Origin: Mobiluncus curtisii subsp. curtisii ATCC 35241
GTDB taxonomy: Bacteria > Actinomycetota > Actinomycetes > Actinomycetales > Actinomycetaceae
Assembly: GCF_000146285.1 (NCBI RefSeq)
Contig: NZ_GL385912.1
Span: forward strand, 1,410,336-1,474,335
Direction of reading: 5' to 3'
DNA: 64,000 nt
The position numbers and the translations under genes were made by a program. Positions 51,925 through 61,362 of the stretch are shown here, piece by piece (positions within the stretch are counted from its first letter, which is position 1; each line of letters starts with the position of its first letter). The notes under the pieces were generated by a model. That model saw only the letters and a list, made by a program, of their open reading frames with translations, was not told the DNA's origin and did no database searches.

Positions 51925-52019
51925 CCGTTTAGCCTAGCGCAACAGGCGTTTTTTTGCGCGCCGGGGGGCGTATTAGGATGGGAGGGACAAATTCGGGAGT
52001 CTGCAAGGAAGGACGAAAC

Positions 52020-53444
52020 ATGTCAGAAACGAAAACCAGTAATTTCAAGTGGAAATTGCATGGGGACGGCAAGCGTATCTCTACCGGTGAGGTAGTTCAG
52101 CCCAACGAGCGTCTGACATGGCCACGCACGATAGGTATCGGAGCCCAGCACATTGTCGCAATGTTCGGGGCGACTTTCCTGGTGCCGCTGCTGACCGGTT
52201 TCTCTCCCGCAACCACACTGTTCTTTACGGGTTTGGGAACCATCCTGTTTATTCTCATCACGTCCGGACGCTTACCTTCGTATTTGGGTTCGTCCTTTGC
52301 ATTGATTGCTCCGATTGGTGCGGTGACCGGTTACGTTTCGGGTGGTGGCGCTCCCATTGACTCGGACAAGATGGCTCTGGCTCAAGGTGGAGTGATTTCT
52401 GCCGGTGCGCTGCTGCTGCTGGTTGGGGTGCTGGTTCATTTTGCTGGTGCAGCCTGGATTGACCGCATCATGCCACCGATTGTGACCGGGGCAATTGTGT
52501 CTTTGATTGGTTTCAACCTGGCACCTTCGGCGTGGAACAACGTCAAGCAGGCTCCCGTGACCGCTACCGTGACCATCTTGTCCGTCCTGTTGATTACCGT
52601 GCTGTTCAAGGGCATTATCGGACGTTTGTCGATTCTGATCGGGGTGCTTATCGGCTATGCGACCGCGGTGATTCGCCACGAAGTAAACTTTGAAGCCATC
52701 AGCAAAGCTGACTGGGTAGGTTTCCCGTCATTCCACGCCCCGACCTTTAGCCCCGCCCTGCTGGGTTTGTTCCTTCCGGTAGTGTTGGTCCTCATTGCTG
52801 AAAACGTGGGGCATGTAAAGTCCGTGTCCGCTATGACTGGTCAGAATCTCGACGATTTGACCGGTCGGGCTTTGATTGCGGACGGTCTGTCCACCATGAT
52901 TGCCGGTAGCGGTGGCGGTTCTGGTACCACTACCTACGCGGAGAACATTGGGGTTATGGCAGCGACTCGGGTCTATTCCACCGTGGCATATATCGTTGCC
53001 GCTATCGGGGCTTTGGCTTTGTCGATGCTGCCCAAGTTTGGTGAAATTATCGCCACCATTCCGCCAGGGGTTCTGGGTGGAGCCGCCACGATTCTGTACG
53101 GCATGATTGGGATGCTGGGAGTGCGTATCTGGGTCCAGAATCAGGTAGATTTCGCTGACCCGGTAAATCTGAATACCGCCGCGGTGGCGATGGTGATGGC
53201 TATCGCGAACTACACTCTGGTAGTCGGTGACGTGAAGTTCGAAGGTATCGCGATGGGTTCTTTCGGAGCCATCGTCATGTACCACGTCATGCGGGCGATT
53301 TCTAACCTGCGTGGCACGAAGCTTGAGCAAGCCTCCCCGGCTTCTGCACCAGCTGGTACAGAACTGCATTCAGAGGCTTATTCTAAGCGCCATGCGGATC
53401 AAGAAATCCGGGCTGCCCAAGGAAGAAGCGATGCCCAGGATTGA
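52020..53444 (+). CDS. uraA: Uracil/nucleobase permease, NCS2 family
   Basis: A 474-residue NCS2 transporter with about 14 hydrophobic segments. Diagnostic features are GAQHIVAMFGATFLVPLLTG, GSSFALIAPIGA, ALIAENVGHVKSVSAMTGQN and DGLSTMIAGSGGGSGTTTYAENIG with the substrate-binding Glu. It imports uracil with protons for Upp. The frame opens at 51954, but ATG 52020 with AAGGA upstream is the natural start. It overlaps the next gene by 14 nt. Confidence 0.93.
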   Translation: MSETKTSNFKWKLHGDGKRISTGEVVQPNERLTWPRTIGIGAQHIVAMFGATFLVPLLTGFSPATTLFFTGLGTILFILITSGRLPSYLGSSFALIAPIGAVTGYVSGGGAPIDSDKMALAQGGVISAGALLLLVGVLVHFAGAAWIDRIMPPIVTGAIVSLIGFNLAPSAWNNVKQAPVTATVTILSVLLITVLFKGIIGRLSILIGVLIGYATAVIRHEVNFEAISKADWVGFPSFHAPTFSPALLGLFLPVVLVLIAENVGHVKSVSAMTGQNLDDLTGRALIADGLSTMIAGSGGGSGTTTYAENIGVMAATRVYSTVAYIVAAIGALALSMLPKFGEIIATIPPGVLGGAATILYGMIGMLGVRIWVQNQVDFADPVNLNTAAVAMVMAIANYTLVVGDVKFEGIAMGSFGAIVMYHVMRAISNLRGTKLEQASPASAPAGTELHSEAYSKRHADQEIRAAQGRSDAQD

Positions 53445-55009: not shown

Positions 55010-55318
55010 GCCATGAACATTTCGCAGAGAGTCTAACCCTATATTTTAGAAATACTGGGGTTGACCGGATGCTGTGTTTCTATCTTAAGTACAACCATAT
55101 TAGACCCGAAACAAACCGGTAATGGAGATACCTTAGAACTATCGGCGGGGATTTGAGCGCAGAGTTGTTCACAAAGTTTGACACTGTGAATTGTGTGTAA
55201 AAACGTCGTTAAAAAGGTAATAAGTGTCATGTACAGAAAAGCTGTACAGCAAAACCGTTGACTTGTATATTCGGTACAAGTAACTTATTTTCATCGCAGT
55301 TTTTGTAAAGGGGCAAAA
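55010..55318 (+). promoter_or_regulatory. Promoter and operators of the ECF operon
   Basis: TTGACT (55258-55263) and TAACTT (55281-55286) are 17 nt apart. Inverted repeat ACTTGTA/TACAAGT (55261-55267/55275-55281) fills the spacer, and a second, TGTACAG/CTGTACA (55230-55236/55242-55248), lies just upstream. Both share the TTGTA/TGTACA core, as expected for autoregulation by the GntR protein encoded next. The remaining ~200 nt before 55230 shows no gene. Confidence 0.65.
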
Positions 55319-56074
55319 ATGGTCAACACGTCACCTCCAGTATATGAACAAATTGCTGAGGTCATACGTCGGCAGATTCATGACGGTGATTACCTCGTGG
55401 GAGACAAGTTGCCCTCTGAGAATGAACTCTGTGAAATTCATAAAGTGGCACGTGGAACAATCAGAAGAGCGATAAATGGATTAATCGCGGAAGGTTTGCT
55501 GGAATCTGAGAAGGGCAAAGGAACATTTGTCACATCGCCCGAAAGTAAAACTTTATTGTGGAATTTTGGTTCACTAACAGACCGCCTCAATGATACTTCC
55601 GAGCGTGCCCTAGCTAAAGTTCTGGAGCAGACCGTCGTGATTCGTGGAAATAGGAAAATGTTGAGATTGAAACGCTTGCGCTCTATTGAGACGGAAAATA
55701 CGGTAATACCAATCAGCCTTGACATTTCGTTTCTTCCCGTAGACCTGCTTCCAGGTATCGAAAAGTACGATTTTGAAGATGAGTCTATCTATCGCATCTT
55801 GAGGGAAAAATACAATCGGAATCCGACCCAATCTCTTGTTTCACTAAAAGCCAGGATAGCAGATCAGGGCACAAAGCGGATTTTGAAAGAATTGCCCAGC
55901 ACTCGCTGTTTATTACATGCTACTGGCGCTACCTACGATAATGTTCATGTTTGCATTGAGGAAAGCGAGATTACCTATTCTTCTCGAGTGCAGGCAGTTA
56001 TGCACATCGATCATCACAATGGATATACTAAACCACTACAAATGACAAAGGAGTTACATCATGTCCATGAATAA
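55319..56074 (+). CDS. GntR/HutC-family transcriptional regulator
   Basis: A 251-residue repressor-type protein. Residues 5-75 form the GntR winged helix (IRRQIHDGDYLVGDKLPSENELCEIHKVARGTIRRAI, wing GKGTFV); the rest is a UTRA ligand-binding domain typical of the HutC subfamily. First gene of the ECF operon; the inducer is probably the transported compound or its phosphate. Noticeably more A+T-rich than the genes to its left. Confidence 0.88.
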   Translation: MVNTSPPVYEQIAEVIRRQIHDGDYLVGDKLPSENELCEIHKVARGTIRRAINGLIAEGLLESEKGKGTFVTSPESKTLLWNFGSLTDRLNDTSERALAKVLEQTVVIRGNRKMLRLKRLRSIETENTVIPISLDISFLPVDLLPGIEKYDFEDESIYRILREKYNRNPTQSLVSLKARIADQGTKRILKELPSTRCLLHATGATYDNVHVCIEESEITYSSRVQAVMHIDHHNGYTKPLQMTKELHHVHE

Positions 56075-56675
56075 AATGAATAAAATGACAATCTATTTAA
56101 TACCAGTTGCGATAGCGCTTAATATTGTTGTTTCGCAAATTGTATTTGCGCTGAAGCTTCCCATTTGGTTGGACTCTATCGGGGTCGTTCTTACGGCAGT
56201 GATTTGTGGATTCTGGCCTGCCACTATCGTCGGTGTGCTGACCGGAGCAGCCTCCCTGATAACAAACCCCTCCAACATATTTTACATTCCTTTATTTGTC
56301 GTCACCGCCGGGGTAGCCGCTTTACTGGCTCGTAAGCACGGATATTCGTCCTTCCTTCGTTCTCTCCTGTCAGGTATTTTAAATGGGCTAGCAACTGGTA
56401 TTACGGGGTCTCTTATTACGATTATGGTCTATGGTGGTCTCTCTTCAACCGGAACTGGAATCATTGCTGGACTGCTGCGCCAGGTTGGCGCCCCAAACTG
56501 GACTGCTGCTATGGCAGCCGGGGTATCGGGTGATATTACCGATAAAGTTTTGACTGCTTTGATTGTGTTCTACATACTGATTGCGCTGCCCCAGCGCACA
56601 CTTGCCAAATTCCCTCGTGGAGAAGCCTATTTGCTCACCCGCGAGAAAAAACAATCAGATAAAGACTCTGAATAG
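56061..56675 (+). CDS. ECF transporter substrate-binding (S) component
   Basis: A 204-residue integral membrane protein with about six helices and no soluble domains. The layout FALKLPIWLDSIGVVLTAVI, PSNIFYIPLFVVTAGVAALLA and the small-residue-rich helix GITGSLITIMVYGG match S components. It overlaps the regulator gene by 14 nt and has AAGGAG ahead of ATG 56061. The ligand is not readable; it is not clearly ThiT, RibU, BioY, FolT or PanT. Confidence 0.82.
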   Translation: MSMNKMNKMTIYLIPVAIALNIVVSQIVFALKLPIWLDSIGVVLTAVICGFWPATIVGVLTGAASLITNPSNIFYIPLFVVTAGVAALLARKHGYSSFLRSLLSGILNGLATGITGSLITIMVYGGLSSTGTGIIAGLLRQVGAPNWTAAMAAGVSGDITDKVLTALIVFYILIALPQRTLAKFPRGEAYLLTREKKQSDKDSE

Positions 56676-56683
56676 GTGTTGAT

Positions 56684-57490
56684 ATGGCACAGGTTGAGGA
56701 GATTTCCAACGATATTAGGCGCTTCGTTTTTCACCCGAGAAAAACCCATCGCTACCAGCACATTAATCCCGTAGTAAGGTTTCTAATACCTCTGGTTCTC
56801 ATGGCGGGTGTGCTGGCAAGCGGGGACCCCTTAACCTTCTATATCTTCACTGGGTTAAATATCGCCGCTGCAGCAGCTTTGCAAGTGTTGATACTGTTTT
56901 GGTCTCGATTCTGGAAGATTGCTCTCACAGTGTCGATATTTACCTTAGGGGTCCGGGCTTTTTTTGAATACGGCGATCACGTCGTATTCAATGTTGGACC
57001 CCTAGCTGTTACGCAAGAAGGGTTGGCATCGGCTAATTGGTATGTAGCAATGCTTCTTGCTGTATGCGCTCCCCTGGTACTGCTCACATCGATTCTGTCT
57101 TTGCAAGATTTGTCTCATGCCTTGGAGCTACTTGGGGCGCGGCGCCAAGTCTGTTATGTAGTAATCAATTCAGCGAGATTGATTCCTGAGCTTGCCACTC
57201 GAGGGAAAGCTGTGCGTGATGCGCAGCGTTCCCGTGGGATACAGGTTGAGGGTAGTCGTCTGGTTAAGCTAAAAGCTGTTCTGCCCACGATTGCCCCCCT
57301 GGTCCTCTCCGCGCTGTCAAGTGTGGAAGAACGAGCCGTTGCCATGGAGGTGAGAGGAGCTAGCATCACCGAAATTAAAGGGACCCGTTTGATTCCTCAA
57401 GATAAGATTTCCGGATTCGGGTACTTGGGTATTTTCGTTGCAGCTTTACTCTCGGTGTTTATTGGAATAGGAGGACGTCTGCTTTGGTAG
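56684..57490 (+). CDS. ECF transporter transmembrane (T) component
   Basis: A 268-residue CbiQ/EcfT protein with about five hydrophobic helices and the Ala-Arg-Gly coupling region seen as RGKAVRDAQRSRGIQVEGSR and VEERAVAMEVRGA, which contact the two ATPases. It joins the S component to the ATPases. It starts 9 nt after the S gene and overlaps ecfA1 by 7 nt. Confidence 0.88.
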   Translation: MAQVEEISNDIRRFVFHPRKTHRYQHINPVVRFLIPLVLMAGVLASGDPLTFYIFTGLNIAAAAALQVLILFWSRFWKIALTVSIFTLGVRAFFEYGDHVVFNVGPLAVTQEGLASANWYVAMLLAVCAPLVLLTSILSLQDLSHALELLGARRQVCYVVINSARLIPELATRGKAVRDAQRSRGIQVEGSRLVKLKAVLPTIAPLVLSALSSVEERAVAMEVRGASITEIKGTRLIPQDKISGFGYLGIFVAALLSVFIGIGGRLLW

Positions 57491-58326
57491 TGGCAATAAA
57501 AACTACGCAGGTAGCGGTTAAGCATCCCTTAGCGAAAACCTGGGCATTGGAAGATATCAATTTGAATTTGGAGTCTGGAAAAGTTTACGGATTGATGGGG
57601 GCTAATGGTTCTGGAAAAACAACATTATGTAACACGCTAAAGGGACTCATTCCAGGTGTCCTTGGCGGCGAAGTAAAAGGTAAAATAGAGATTTTCGGTA
57701 AAGACCTGAACGGACTGTCGCAACGAGAGTTGGTTGAAACTATCGCTTTGGTCTTTGAAAATCCATACACCCAGTTGACAGGTACGTGCCAGACGGTTGT
57801 CGAAGAGATTGCCTTTGGGCTTGAGAACCTGGGTTGGGAACGCGAGCGCATAATTGAGCAAACCGCACGCGTGATATGCGATATGGATTTGCAAGACCTT
57901 GCGTTTAGAGACCCCCTGGAGTTGTCCGGTGGGCAGAGACAAAGAGTCTCTGTTGCCGCGGTGATGGCTATGGATACCCCGGTTATTGTTATTGATGAAC
58001 CCACTTCTCAGTTGGATCCTGCAACCACAGAAATGATTTTCGCTGCTATTACGAAAATGAAGGACGCCGGAAAAACCGTGCTTCTCTGTGAAAATAAAAT
58101 TGACCAATTGGTAGAAATTGCGGACGAAATAATCATTTTAGATAACGGAAGGGTTTACACTGCAGGGCAACCCGGTGAAGTACTATCACGAGCCAAATCC
58201 GATGGGCTTCACTGCGGTTTCCCGGAACTATTTACGTTATCTTCGGGTTTAAATGTCTCACCTAGATGGATTACATTCGCGCAGGCTAAAGCATCTGTCA
58301 ATACGTATGTTGAGGAATGGCAATGA
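57484..58326 (+). CDS. ECF transporter ATPase A1
   Basis: A 280-residue ABC ATPase with Walker A GANGSGKTT, Q-loop (FENPYTQL), intact signature LSGGQRQRVSV, Walker B VIVIDEPT and D-loop (QLDP). The C-terminus is typical of EcfA. TTG start at 57484 with GGAGG 9 nt upstream, overlapping the T gene. It pairs with the next gene as a heterodimer. Confidence 0.9.
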   Translation: MVVAIKTTQVAVKHPLAKTWALEDINLNLESGKVYGLMGANGSGKTTLCNTLKGLIPGVLGGEVKGKIEIFGKDLNGLSQRELVETIALVFENPYTQLTGTCQTVVEEIAFGLENLGWERERIIEQTARVICDMDLQDLAFRDPLELSGGQRQRVSVAAVMAMDTPVIVIDEPTSQLDPATTEMIFAAITKMKDAGKTVLLCENKIDQLVEIADEIIILDNGRVYTAGQPGEVLSRAKSDGLHCGFPELFTLSSGLNVSPRWITFAQAKASVNTYVEEWQ

Positions 58327-59135
58327 TTAATTGTGACCACGTTGAATACTGTTATCCGGGTGGGACTCGGGCTCTCACAAGCGTATCCCTCAAAATAGAA
58401 TGCGGAGAGTGCGTTGCACTCATAGGGCAAAACGGAGCTGGTAAAAGCACCCTGTCGAAGCTACTGAACGGACTAATCCGACCTACCTCCGGAACTATTT
58501 ACTTAGAAGGGCAAGATACCTCAAATTATCGAACCGATGAAATAGCACAGCGCGTAGGATACGTGTTTCAGAATCCCGATGATCAAATTTTTTCTAAAAC
58601 AGTACACGAAGAATGTGAGTATGCGCTCAAGCGTCTAGGTGTAGAACAAACTGAAAGGGAAGAGAGAATCACCCAGGCTCTGAGCGTATGTAACTTACTG
58701 GAAGAAGCAGAGACTAATCCACTAGATTTGCCCCTTGCGCAGCGTAAGTTTGTCGCAATAGCTGCGGTGCTTGCTATGGACCCTAATTATGTGATTCTGG
58801 ATGAGCCAACCGCCGGACTGGATGAGTTAGGTCGACGGGATTTAGTCGCCATTATGCAATGGGCCAGTAATGCTGGTAAGTCCGTAATCGCAGTTTCGCA
58901 CGACATGCGCTTCGTTATTGAAAATTTTCCGAGGGTTGTGGTGATGAGCCAGGGTGGCATAATCAGTGATAATTCTGTAGCAGATGCGTTCTCCAATGAT
59001 CAAGTCTTGGCAGAGGCGAAGTTAACCGTCCCCCCTGCGGTCCAAATATCTCGGCACGCCGGCGCGCCTAAAGAGTTATTACAAATGGATCAAATTTTCA
59101 ATTGGTGCAAAGACTTCTTATATCGAAAATCATAA
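58317..59135 (+). CDS. ECF transporter ATPase A2 with degenerate signature motif
   Basis: A 272-residue ABC ATPase with Walker A GQNGAGKST, Q-loop FQNPDDQIF, Walker B YVILDEPTAGLD and switch His (VSHDM). Where LSGGQ is expected it reads LPLAQRKF, so the signature is altered while A1 keeps its own. This gives one canonical and one degenerate ATP site in the heterodimer. Overlaps A1 by 10 nt. Confidence 0.9.
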   Translation: MAMINCDHVEYCYPGGTRALTSVSLKIECGECVALIGQNGAGKSTLSKLLNGLIRPTSGTIYLEGQDTSNYRTDEIAQRVGYVFQNPDDQIFSKTVHEECEYALKRLGVEQTEREERITQALSVCNLLEEAETNPLDLPLAQRKFVAIAAVLAMDPNYVILDEPTAGLDELGRRDLVAIMQWASNAGKSVIAVSHDMRFVIENFPRVVVMSQGGIISDNSVADAFSNDQVLAEAKLTVPPAVQISRHAGAPKELLQMDQIFNWCKDFLYRKS

Positions 59136-59164
59136 ATTTATCCATTTAGAAAGGCATTAACAAC

Positions 59165-59923
59165 ATGATGCAAACTAAACAGAATCTACTCGGTAACTGG
59201 CCCGGAAACGGTGAAAAACTCTTGCTAGGGATGATTCATTTAAAAGGTAATGAAATAGACGATATCTATTCCCGTGCCGTACGCGAGTGCGACATATATG
59301 CTCGTGGCGGATTTGATGGCGTAATAGTTGAGAATTATTTTGGCACTATAGACGACGTTCGCTATTGTCTGCCGCGGCTACAAGACAAGTTCCCTCAGCT
59401 TTATGTCGGTGTTGATGTGATTTGGGATAACGATAAGAGCTTCGATTTAGCTGTCGAGCACCAGTTGCCCTTTATCGAGCTTGATTCTCTGGCAGGACAA
59501 CTCCCTCCTCAAGAGGAGCCGCAATTTGAGGAACGTATCCGTTGGTGTCAGGAAAACTCACCTGCCGTAATTCTTGGAGGAGTCAGACTTAAGAATCAAC
59601 CCGTTCTCAGTGGAAATCCGCTCGAGGTAGATTTAATGCTTGCCAAAAAACGTGGCGATGGAGTCATTGTTACGGGAGTGGATACGGGAGTTGAAACCGA
59701 GCTTTCCAAGATAATTCAATTTCGAGAAATCATAGGTGACTTTCCACTGTTGGTCGGCGCTGGCGTAAATGAGAAAAATTGCACGGAGCAGTTGACAATC
59801 GCCGATGGTGCCATCATCGGGTCCTCACTCAAACAAGGAGGAAACGCTAAAGGTGATTTGGAAATGGATAGAGTCGAACGATTAGTTACGGCAGTTAGAG
59901 CATTGCGGGGAAAGGTAAAGTAA
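59165..59923 (+). CDS. BtpA/SgcQ-family TIM-barrel protein
   Basis: A 252-residue cytosolic protein of the BtpA family, whose members include cyanobacterial BtpA and E. coli SgcQ. Family-like pieces are LLGMIHLKGNEIDDIYSRAV, GGFDGVIVENYFGT, DGVIVTGVDTGVETELSKI and PLLVGAGVNEKNC with GAIIGSSLKQGG. The fold is close to ribulose-phosphate-binding barrels, so cleavage or isomerisation of a phosphorylated sugar or nucleoside is plausible. Sits between the ATPases and the cupin/kinase genes. Confidence 0.82.
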   Translation: MMQTKQNLLGNWPGNGEKLLLGMIHLKGNEIDDIYSRAVRECDIYARGGFDGVIVENYFGTIDDVRYCLPRLQDKFPQLYVGVDVIWDNDKSFDLAVEHQLPFIELDSLAGQLPPQEEPQFEERIRWCQENSPAVILGGVRLKNQPVLSGNPLEVDLMLAKKRGDGVIVTGVDTGVETELSKIIQFREIIGDFPLLVGAGVNEKNCTEQLTIADGAIIGSSLKQGGNAKGDLEMDRVERLVTAVRALRGKVK

Positions 59924-59924
59924 C

Positions 59925-60428
59925 ATGAGCAAGCGGTTAGTAGTCGGAAAAGATGACGTGTCGAAATGGGGGATAGCACTACTTTTTTCACCAGGAAGCG
60001 ATTCTGTCGTGGTCACTAACGGTGATGGATGGCATGACTTTAAGAGCGCTGCGAAGATTTCAGACGGTGCAGTCAATCTTGCTATGACGCAAGTTAGTGT
60101 CCTGCCGAAACGGATTGAAAGAATGGAGAGACATGACCATACAAAGGAAACTCTTTGTCCTACCAATCATTCGATAGTGCTAGGGGTATGCGCGAAAGAA
60201 TTTGATGTCCCCGAGACTGACCAATGTGTGTTGTTGGAAATTCCCTGTGGAACTGCCCTTGTTATGGATAAAGGAACCTGGCATTCGCCATGCTTCGGGG
60301 TTAGCGAGCCAACCCAGTACTACTGGATTGCTACCTCGGACCCTCGTTTTCCGTCAGAGTGGATACCGTTAGCAGGCGGTAGCTTGGAGACATACATGGA
60401 GACGGAAAGTGATTCTGATGTCCTCTGA
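59925..60428 (+). CDS. AllA-like cupin (ureidoglycolate lyase family-like)
   Basis: A 167-residue protein. IERMERHDHTKETLCPTNHSIVLGVC and VMDKGTWHSPCFG match the ordering in ureidoglycolate lyase and its cupin relatives, including the two His-bearing stretches. No allantoin genes are nearby, so a different substrate is likely. It begins 1 nt after the BtpA-like gene and overlaps the kinase gene by 20 nt. Confidence 0.7.
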   Translation: MSKRLVVGKDDVSKWGIALLFSPGSDSVVVTNGDGWHDFKSAAKISDGAVNLAMTQVSVLPKRIERMERHDHTKETLCPTNHSIVLGVCAKEFDVPETDQCVLLEIPCGTALVMDKGTWHSPCFGVSEPTQYYWIATSDPRFPSEWIPLAGGSLETYMETESDSDVL

Positions 60429-61362
60429 CGAGCTAGGAGATTCACTTGAAACACAGTTCGAGAACGGGGGTGCTATCTGTTTCATCGGTGAACCCGTTCT
60501 TGACATATATATAAATCTTGACCATTGGCCGAAGCTGGGGGATAAGGCATGTCTGCTGAGTCAAGAGACCTTGCCTGGAGGAACAGTAGCTAATATGGCA
60601 GTCAATGCCTCTTGGTTAGGGCTAAAGACCCGCATGATCGGCTGTCTAAAATCCGGAGAAATCAGCGACCAGCTGATAAAAGACTTAAATGAGCATGGGG
60701 TTAACACCGACTTCATTTCCTTGACTACCGACGCGCCTGACCCTGTCTGTTACGTCTTTTTAACTGAAGGAAGTAATGTGGCAGCGTACCCGGATCGTTC
60801 AAGGGAAAAGCTGTTTTTAGATCAGGAGAGCCTAGAAACGATTTCAAAATCAAGAGTGGTGTGCTCGACACCTGAAAAACTGAGAAGAATATGTAATCAT
60901 GATGATTTTCTGCAATCGATTCGTAAGGTGAAGCGTTCAGGGGGGCATCTGGTGCTTGATATAGATACCGGCGCAGAATTCGATGCTAAACACCCTCTAG
61001 AAACAGAGGCTTCCATAGTAATTATGAATGAGTTTGGGGCTGAGCGTCTATTTGGCATGAACTGGGAACAGCTATCTTCACGACTACCAGACCAATCTCC
61101 CGACATTAAATCCGTATTTACATGCCCGGATATTACTCTGTTCGTAACCGGGTCAGAAAAGGGCGTGTGGACTTACAGAGATGGATGGCGCCTGTGGGAG
61201 GTAACTCCCGCTCCGGTAGTAGATCCGACCGGGGCAGGAGATGCTTTCGTTGCCGGAATCGTTACTGGTATAGCACAAGGTTATTCCTTTGAACGTTGCG
61301 TTTTGCAGGCGTTAGACTGTGGTAAGCAGGCGGTGGGAATAAAGGGTGCCCGATTACGCTGA
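60409..61362 (+). CDS. PfkB-family carbohydrate/nucleoside kinase
   Basis: A 317-residue ribokinase-type enzyme. N-terminal substrate-binding GEPVLDIYINLDHWPKLGDK and LPGGTVANMAVNASWLG; the C-terminal anion hole and catalytic Asp are in DPTGAGDAFVAGIVTG. It phosphorylates a hydroxymethyl group of a sugar or nucleoside-like substrate. GTG 60409 (GGAG 7 nt upstream) or ATG 60418. Last gene of the operon. Confidence 0.88.
   Translation: MILMSSDELGDSLETQFENGGAICFIGEPVLDIYINLDHWPKLGDKACLLSQETLPGGTVANMAVNASWLGLKTRMIGCLKSGEISDQLIKDLNEHGVNTDFISLTTDAPDPVCYVFLTEGSNVAAYPDRSREKLFLDQESLETISKSRVVCSTPEKLRRICNHDDFLQSIRKVKRSGGHLVLDIDTGAEFDAKHPLETEASIVIMNEFGAERLFGMNWEQLSSRLPDQSPDIKSVFTCPDITLFVTGSEKGVWTYRDGWRLWEVTPAPVVDPTGAGDAFVAGIVTGIAQGYSFERCVLQALDCGKQAVGIKGARLR

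Follow-up and report, generated by a model that had tools for sequence, protein, structure and literature searches.

Positions 55319–61362 of a 64,000-nucleotide stretch of Mobiluncus curtisii subsp. curtisii ATCC 35241 (contig NZ_GL385912.1, hereafter the window) were examined using open reading frame (ORF) calls and profile searches, which revealed eight intact genes tightly packed on the + strand. The gene order is a GntR-UTRA regulator, the S, T, A1 and A2 components of an energy-coupling factor (ECF) importer, a BtpA-family barrel, an AllA-like cupin and a PfkB kinase. Intergenic spacing ranges from a 20-bp overlap between the cupin and PfkB genes to a 29-bp gap between A2 and BtpA, with several overlaps. 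The list of eight genes and the coordinates given in a preliminary description of this DNA were correct by ORFs and profiles. The arrangement is interpreted here as a GntR-regulated operon for the uptake and catabolism of a riboside- or ribose-like compound, a reading that is considered modestly probable.

The import module is complete, with S, T and two ATP-binding cassette (ABC) ATPases encoded together. The S component (56061–56675, + strand, as for all features given below) scored best with the NCBIfam model of the CD3073-family ECF S component (NF045596), to which it is distantly related (94.3 bits, curated cut-off 180), and matched Pfam ECF_trnsprt weakly (17.2 bits, cut-off 30.7). The T component (56684–57490) was recognised by CbiQ (PF02361, 57.4 bits, cut-off 25) and contains two Arg-Gly motifs, SRG near 183 and VRGA near 224. 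The ATPases A1 (57484–58326; TIGR04520, 184.6 bits, cut-off 315) and A2 (58317–59135; TIGR04521, 230.4 bits, cut-off 330) each contain Walker A and Walker B motifs and score below these equivalog cut-offs. A1 has the consensus signature LSGGQ and A2 the degenerate signature LPLAQ. A degenerate signature in the second ATPase was also seen in L030, L034, L035, L037, L050, L090, L158, L166 and L167 (for example VPFAI, VPYST, IPYPI, LPYSK, LNFSE, LSLSD or LSSVE), and the first ATPase retained LSGGQ or LSGGE wherever its sequence was printed. In this branch of ECF importers, one ATP site may have lost its activity.

The BtpA protein (59165–59923) is a phosphate-binding-type TIM barrel that belongs to family PF03437 (94.1 bits, cut-off 30) and falls below the cut-off of the BtpA/SgcQ subfamily TIGR00259 (91.5 of 153.4 bits), placing it on a divergent branch of a family found in bacteria and archaea. 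The predicted structure (pLDDT 93) gave Z scores of approximately 18–21 to structures of HPS, KDPGal aldolase, GGGP synthase, HisF, TrpA and PRAI, although several hits of the fold search are designed cages derived from a single aldolase. Many phosphate-binding TIM barrels lie within 2–3 Z units of the model and unlisted families may fit too, so that no single reaction can be chosen for BtpA. At the sequence level, solved structures resembled BtpA only in the C-terminal, phosphate-binding segment of OMP decarboxylase and TrpA, and no BtpA-named chain was present among the best 60 of 82 matches. Barrel positions including E56, K143, T174 and K223 hardly vary across 51 aligned BtpA rows. The phosphosugar-type fold of the model agrees with a BtpA that would act on a phosphate.

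The kinase (60409–61362) is a member of the PfkB/ribokinase family, with 116.8 bits to PF00294 (cut-off 25.8), a GAGD motif, and D32, N62 and TGAGD 274–278 invariant in 7 aligned rows. It remained under the cut-offs of more specific models, reaching 77.9 bits with ribokinase TIGR02152 (cut-off 299.65), 54.6 bits with fructoselysine 6-kinase NF007321 (cut-off 247) and, for pseudouridine kinase, 18 bits (cut-off 540).

The cupin (59925–60428) is above the cut-off of Pfam Ureidogly_lyase (PF04115, 32.3 bits, cut-off 23) and far below the equivalog-level NCBIfam models of ureidoglycolate lyase (best 26.9 of 230 bits). Its predicted structure (pLDDT 90) gave Z scores of 14.7–16.1 to AllA structures, the highest to AllA of P. 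putida, and the next fold family was DUF4867 of B. megaterium with a Z score of 14.1. Four residues, E68, H70, E75 and H120, are invariant in 26 aligned rows, and in a weak alignment (E 0.012) E68 and H70 fall on E97 and H99 of the DUF4867 protein SqvB, E75 is one residue off E103 and H120 lies opposite H150. The cupin is missing from the BtpA-PfkB loci L050, L051 and L090, which fits a step able to run uncatalysed, as mutarotation can. The available part of one study describes the DUF4867 protein as a 2His-2Glu metalloprotein (SqvB E97, H99, E103 and H150) encoded in sugar gene clusters and proposes it as a mutarotase or ring isomerase (PMC11968277), and ring opening is proposed for the same protein in the accessible text of another (PMC9594981). 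By analogy, the cupin is more likely to be a ring-opening than a breakdown enzyme, predicted to open or mutarotate a sugar ring. The preliminary description had it breaking the imported compound down, which is supported neither by the nearest folds, AllA and DUF4867/SqvB, nor by its absence from some BtpA-PfkB loci. Assignment as a plain ureidoglycolate lyase was demoted on the basis of the equivalog scores, the same absence and the DUF4867 fold match.

The distribution of the enzyme trio was examined by one pattern-based scan of species genomes with BtpA alignment, which confirmed 94 relatives, 80 of them kept as loci. Each locus was scored with profiles of BtpA, cupin and PfkB, giving 81 scored sources that comprise 60 loci of the window BtpA subfamily, the window itself, 19 loci below 250 bits and L099, in which no BtpA ORF was called. 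Loci whose BtpA reached 250 bits or more in its profile were assigned to the subfamily, with this limit chosen after the scores had been seen, and the window is not counted within it.

Genes for an amino-acid-type ABC importer were found at 40 of the 60 subfamily loci, accompanied by the cupin in all 40 and by PfkB in 38, with the PfkB-free loci L048 and L058 lying on contigs of 7.8 and 4.0 kb. The hosts are mainly Alphaproteobacteria, with Arthrobacter, Propionibacteriaceae metagenome-assembled genomes (MAGs) and one Thermomicrobiales MAG, and many of the loci come from closely related Rhizobiales and are hence not independent. A GntR gene is present in at least 28 of the 40, a lower bound because ORF calling favours long antisense frames in high-GC DNA. 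Three annotated plasmid copies have the order permease, ATPase, binding protein, GntR, BtpA, ureidoglycolate lyase and carbohydrate kinase. The binding protein of the ABC loci, read from an alignment, keeps the carboxylate-binding Arg and has Gly where amino-acid binders have Asp.

An ECF importer is encoded at six subfamily loci, all with PfkB and a T gene and four with the cupin, in Varibaculum, two Actinomyces, Lentibacillus, Gottfriedia and one Lachnospiraceae MAG. In the phylum of this MAG, BtpA matches at E 1e-15 were obtained in 7 of 348 genomes, two of them above 250 bits, of which one (L203) is additional to the loci of the scan. Phosphotransferase system (PTS) genes of the mannose/sorbose family, whose domains were profiled in one locus, lie at seven subfamily loci, none with the cupin and one with PfkB (L087, a separate gene scoring 41 bits). 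At the remaining seven the markers recognised no importer; none of these has the cupin and one has PfkB. Neither cupin nor PfkB was detected by profile at the 19 lower-scoring BtpA loci. One of the seven loci without a recognised importer, L051, combines BtpA and PfkB with an ABC set that we read as polyamine-like (binding protein SBP_bac_8) and with a creatinase-N-domain (M24-type) protein.

Conservation of the gene set beyond its own genome, which the preliminary description had named as a test, was thus found well beyond it, and a set private to that genome was rejected on the presence of the trio in several phyla. As the same three enzymes recur in these phyla behind quite different importers, the trio looks like a real nutrient pathway. 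A PTS phosphorylates its sugar during import, and the PTS loci keep BtpA yet drop kinase and cupin, so the step of BtpA probably follows phosphorylation and uses a sugar-like substrate.

Several arrangements around BtpA were seen in addition. An Actinomyces genome (L036, also L028) contains a second A2-BtpA-cupin copy inside the operon. In Lentibacillus kapialis (L037:11667-14452) the operon is followed by ribokinase-like and eIF2B/ribose-1,5-bisphosphate-isomerase-like genes and a second, typical BtpA. At L047:3445-4809 a subfamily BtpA gene starts approximately 6 bp after a KptA/Tpt1 RNA 2'-phosphotransferase gene, an arrangement that possibly links BtpA with RNA- or NAD-derived ribose phosphates. 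On Rhizobium and Salipiger plasmids (L176–L179) a more typical BtpA directly precedes an FGGY sugar kinase with adjoining sugar ABC genes, and three of these four loci carry SDR and DeoR genes, giving a different type of BtpA operon. BtpA genes on two haloarchaeal plasmids had no co-directional kinase or importer beside them.

The neighbours of S components matching the CD3073 model were examined in 30 regions from 27 genomes, representing the stronger matches among 52 of 348 genomes of one phylum and leaving out the strong match G525 and most weak matches. A TudS-like gene lies beside the S component in 11 of the 30 regions (L146–L156), and one TudS-like protein tested was over the CD3072 desulfidase cut-off. 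The pairing of S with a putative desulfidase suggests that thiolated bases or nucleosides are taken up there. In 9 of the 30 the neighbours include a nucleoside hydrolase or nucleoside phosphorylase, one region having both kinds of neighbour, TudS-like and nucleoside-cleaving. In Actinomycetota, where four S regions were read and six other matches of at most 42 bits were left out, a nucleoside hydrolase gene is present in three and a TudS-like gene in the fourth. Among the neighbours scanned, the kinases of L158 and L167 exceeded the ribokinase cut-off and RbsD of L031 its own. In L090 the gene run S-T-A-A-PfkB-BtpA is followed 6 bp after BtpA by a nucleoside hydrolase.

A tree of 37 S components grouped the six that are BtpA-linked, the window and five others, in one clade with support of 100/100. 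This clade is nested in a 21-member group whose support, 83/91, is not strong, and 9 of the 15 non-BtpA rows of the group have a nucleoside hydrolase or phosphorylase neighbour. Comparison of BtpA-linked with nucleoside-linked S components separated them only at position 18 (I vs V) and a C-terminal Gly, which is uninformative. In L030, L210 and L211, from 3 of 121 genomes in the family of G077, the gene run is LacI-type regulator, S, T, ATPase, PRA-isomerase-like barrel, PfkB and nucleoside hydrolase, the PRAI-like gene occupying the place that BtpA has in the window operon.

Distant BtpA loci repeat the ribose and nucleoside theme in part, which supports this ligand class. L209 has the order PfkB, BtpA, RbsA-type ATPase, permease, binding protein, AllA-like, sugar-binding regulator and TAL/FSA. 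In L205, 2.6 kb separate BtpA from a following D-ribose pyranase gene over its cut-off, and a further ABC ATPase is present; in L206 the genes after PfkB-BtpA encode a binding protein of PnrA/Bmp type, an ATPase and permeases. Dihydropyrimidinase, DeoC and BtpA genes share one 9-kb contig in L204, not one operon.

In the pathway proposed for the window operon, the S-T-A1-A2 importer, typed by homology, would import a compound whose class is suggested by the S group. The AllA-like cupin would then open or mutarotate its sugar ring, as proposed for DUF4867/SqvB, and PfkB, judging from its family and conserved residues, would phosphorylate a sugar hydroxyl. Finally, BtpA would isomerise, epimerise or cleave the phosphorylated product, which would enter pentose-phosphate metabolism. 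BtpA is placed last because a PTS replaces importer, kinase and cupin in BtpA loci, and phosphorylation before the barrel, as the preliminary description had it, is favoured on the same ground. The nucleoside- or glycoside-like ligand of that description likewise remains the best-supported class, given the nucleoside-enzyme neighbours of related S components. Within it a riboside or ribose-like sugar appears the best class, because the S component groups with others that in many cases are encoded beside nucleoside hydrolase, ribokinase or nucleoside phosphorylase. The kind of pathway is rated as phosphorylative sugar or nucleoside salvage.

A number of observations weigh against the riboside or ribose reading and the proposed steps. 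The S component reaches only 94 of the 180 bits required by the CD3073 model, neither a nucleoside-cleaving nor a TudS-like neighbour is present in 11 of the 30 S regions, and a nucleoside-cleaving neighbour is lacking for 6 of the 15 non-BtpA rows in the S group. The 40 ABC loci have an importer from an amino-acid family, the ATPase of L206 finds its best match in a model of a putative B6 transporter (439 of 670 bits), and the M24-type and GH32/68-like neighbours in L051 fit a glycoside. Two of the seven PTS loci lie near contig ends (L084 on a 3.3-kb contig, L052 with 0.7 kb after BtpA), making the absences partly blind. Subfamily BtpA occurs without importer or kinase in L045, L046, L047 and L049, and L203, on an 8.2-kb contig, has BtpA and PfkB on opposite strands and no recognised importer. 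In the available part of the DUF4867 study no mutarotation of sulfoquinovose (SQ) or sulfofructose (SF) was detected for the protein (PMC11968277). The available text on Escherichia coli SgcQ describes PTS-chaperone-like features and reports normal growth of sgc mutants on 190 carbon sources (PMC13343008).

These SgcQ features are also the basis for supposing that BtpA is not an enzyme at all and serves the importer or kinase as a regulator, chaperone or assembly factor. A title in the reference list of PMC11433714, according to which cyanobacterial BtpA is needed for the first step of tetrapyrrole synthesis, can be taken in the same sense. The near-invariance of E56, K143, T174 and K223 is what would be expected of an active site, and BtpA keeps its place beside unrelated importers, which makes a non-enzymatic role very improbable. 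If BtpA is a catalyst, it could be a nucleosidase or lyase. PfkB would then 5'-phosphorylate an intact modified nucleoside and BtpA would release ribose 5-phosphate and the base, resembling pseudouridine catabolism, where a PfkB kinase acts before a glycosidase. The association of the S group with nucleoside enzymes, the resemblance of the phosphate-binding segment to OMP decarboxylase and TrpA and the PnrA/Bmp-type importer beside PfkB-BtpA in L206 are consistent with this scheme, and as the window operon has no nucleoside hydrolase another enzyme must do the cleaving. However, a nucleosidase would be redundant in L090, where nucleoside hydrolase and BtpA coexist, and the ring-opening cupin would be left without a role. 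The sugar PTS and the ribose-type ABC importer of L209 better suit free sugars, and the window PfkB scores just 18 bits on the pseudouridine kinase model. A nucleosidase is accordingly thought unlikely, although less so than a BtpA that is not an enzyme.

The importers at the other loci allow a different substrate, an Amadori compound such as a fructosyl- or ribulosyl-amine, which would be imported, ring-opened by the cupin, phosphorylated by PfkB in the manner of fructoselysine 6-kinase and cleaved by BtpA as a deglycase. The amino-acid-type importer at 40 of the 60 loci and the mannose-family PTS at seven would suit such a compound, as would the weak similarity of PfkB to fructoselysine 6-kinase. 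A PRAI-like barrel, from the family of an Amadori isomerase, stands between ATPase and PfkB in L030, L210 and L211, whose S components are related to that of the window. The ribokinase model nevertheless scores PfkB higher, the binding protein, as aligned, has no amino-group-binding Asp and the S relatives point towards nucleosides, so that an Amadori substrate is more doubtful than the nucleosidase scheme. The least probable of the alternatives takes the cupin as truly ureidoglycolate-lyase-like and the operon as a route for breaking down a ureide or glycosyl-urea, whose sugar part would fall to BtpA and PfkB. The PF04115 score above cut-off is in its favour, agmatinase-family genes adjoin part of the alphaproteobacterial loci, and allophanate hydrolase and isochorismatase-type genes occur near typical BtpA on Rhizobium leguminosarum or Salipiger plasmids. 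Against these stand the equivalog scores far below cut-off, the inconsistency of agmatinase and allophanate genes among loci and the absence of the cupin in L050, L051 and L090. A link to urea or guanidine enzymes was seen only in part of the loci, not consistently, and is retained as this alternative.

The preferred reading, riboside or ribose-like salvage, has a wider form in which a widespread, undescribed salvage route for modified ribosides or unusual ribose-like sugars exists in versions of which the operon is one, and the BtpA/SgcQ family consists of phosphosugar isomerases, epimerases or lyases. This wider form is put forward tentatively and is less probable than the reading of the operon itself; it is weakened by the tetrapyrrole-synthesis title and the chaperone-like description of SgcQ. 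The conserved trio behind interchangeable importers fixes the probable step of BtpA, after phosphorylation, and narrows the ligand class, reducing the question of BtpA function to a small set of enzyme assays. For an orphan group of ECF substrate-binding components, it also points to ribosides as ligands. If true, the wider form would give the BtpA/SgcQ family its first enzymatic role in catabolism.

The regulator gene (55319–56074) encodes a GntR-family protein with a UTRA effector domain (PF00392, 71.8 bits; PF07702, 53.6 bits) that stayed below the cut-off for all 25 NCBIfam families listed. Upstream of it lies an inverted repeat with 7-bp arms, TGTACA-N7-TGTACA (55230–55248), which is a candidate operator for GntR. 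The exact form is a single copy in the 2.15-Mb genome. One-mismatch forms occur at 3 places in the genome, compared to 1 for a reversed control pattern, and two-mismatch forms at 2 in the window, compared to 1.1 expected; as these barely exceed control or expectation, only the exact copy stands out. A similar inverted repeat precedes gntR in L034 (9-bp arms) and L050 (8-bp arms), and none was called before gntR in L035, L036 and L037. A scan of the window for known RNA elements gave only tRNAs above the gathering threshold. No + strand terminator was found after PfkB by a scan that gave 4 terminator-like sites in the region compared to 6.8 in shuffles.

The GC content of the operon is 46.7%, compared to 53.6% for the remaining window. 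The lowest value to its left was 51.3% (98 windows of operon length, step 500 bp), in agreement with the preliminary description of an operon more A+T-rich than its left flank. The S component was found in one of four genomes of the genus, its own. BtpA matches at E 1e-3 were obtained in 8 of 213 genomes of the family, four of them strong (E <1e-100) with the own genome included; the family, per the search grouping, also includes one genome matching Varibaculum cambriense and two matching Actinomyces. The A+T-rich composition and this patchy occurrence in genus and family suggest that the operon was acquired by horizontal gain. Approximately 2 kb upstream of the operon, an ORF at 51954–53444 reads like a uracil/xanthine permease.

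The protein families of the operon are known, while their combination and pathway are not described in the literature searched. The earlier statement that no described pathway has this set agrees with that search, which left subscription journals mostly outside. The closest known systems each share part of the operon. CD3073-type ECF operons (S-T-A-A with IUNH, RbsK, uridine phosphorylase or TudS-like) have a related S component and the same ECF layout, but contain a nucleoside hydrolase or phosphorylase where the window has BtpA, AllA-like cupin and PfkB; we know of no proven ligand for the S family of these operons. In the sgcABCEQX operon of E. coli the BtpA-family SgcQ lies beside PTS genes, as in the seven subfamily loci, and its PTS belongs to a different PTS family than theirs. 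Unlike the window operon, sgcABCEQX has no ECF importer, cupin or PfkB. The available part of a report on sgc proposes a link to unusual carbohydrate or pentitol chemistry, with the substrate unknown (PMC13343008). The sulfoglycolytic pathways with DUF4867/SqvB (sulfo-SFT and sulfo-EMP2), as far as described in the accessible parts of their reports, count an AllA-related cupin among the steps by which a sugar is degraded (PMC9594981, PMC11968277). The distant BtpA locus L209 shares with them a transaldolase/FSA-family gene, whereas the window operon has no SQ isomerase or sulfosugar enzyme and its cupin is of the PF04115 type, not DUF4867. Ribose and pseudouridine catabolism (RbsD-RbsK, or PfkB with one further enzyme) differ in their second enzyme, which in the window is BtpA, and the window kinase is under the cut-offs of both kinase models. 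They follow the same logic of import, ring opening, phosphorylation and entry into pentose-phosphate metabolism, and the D-ribose pyranase gene that lies 2.6 kb after BtpA in L205 adds to this likeness.

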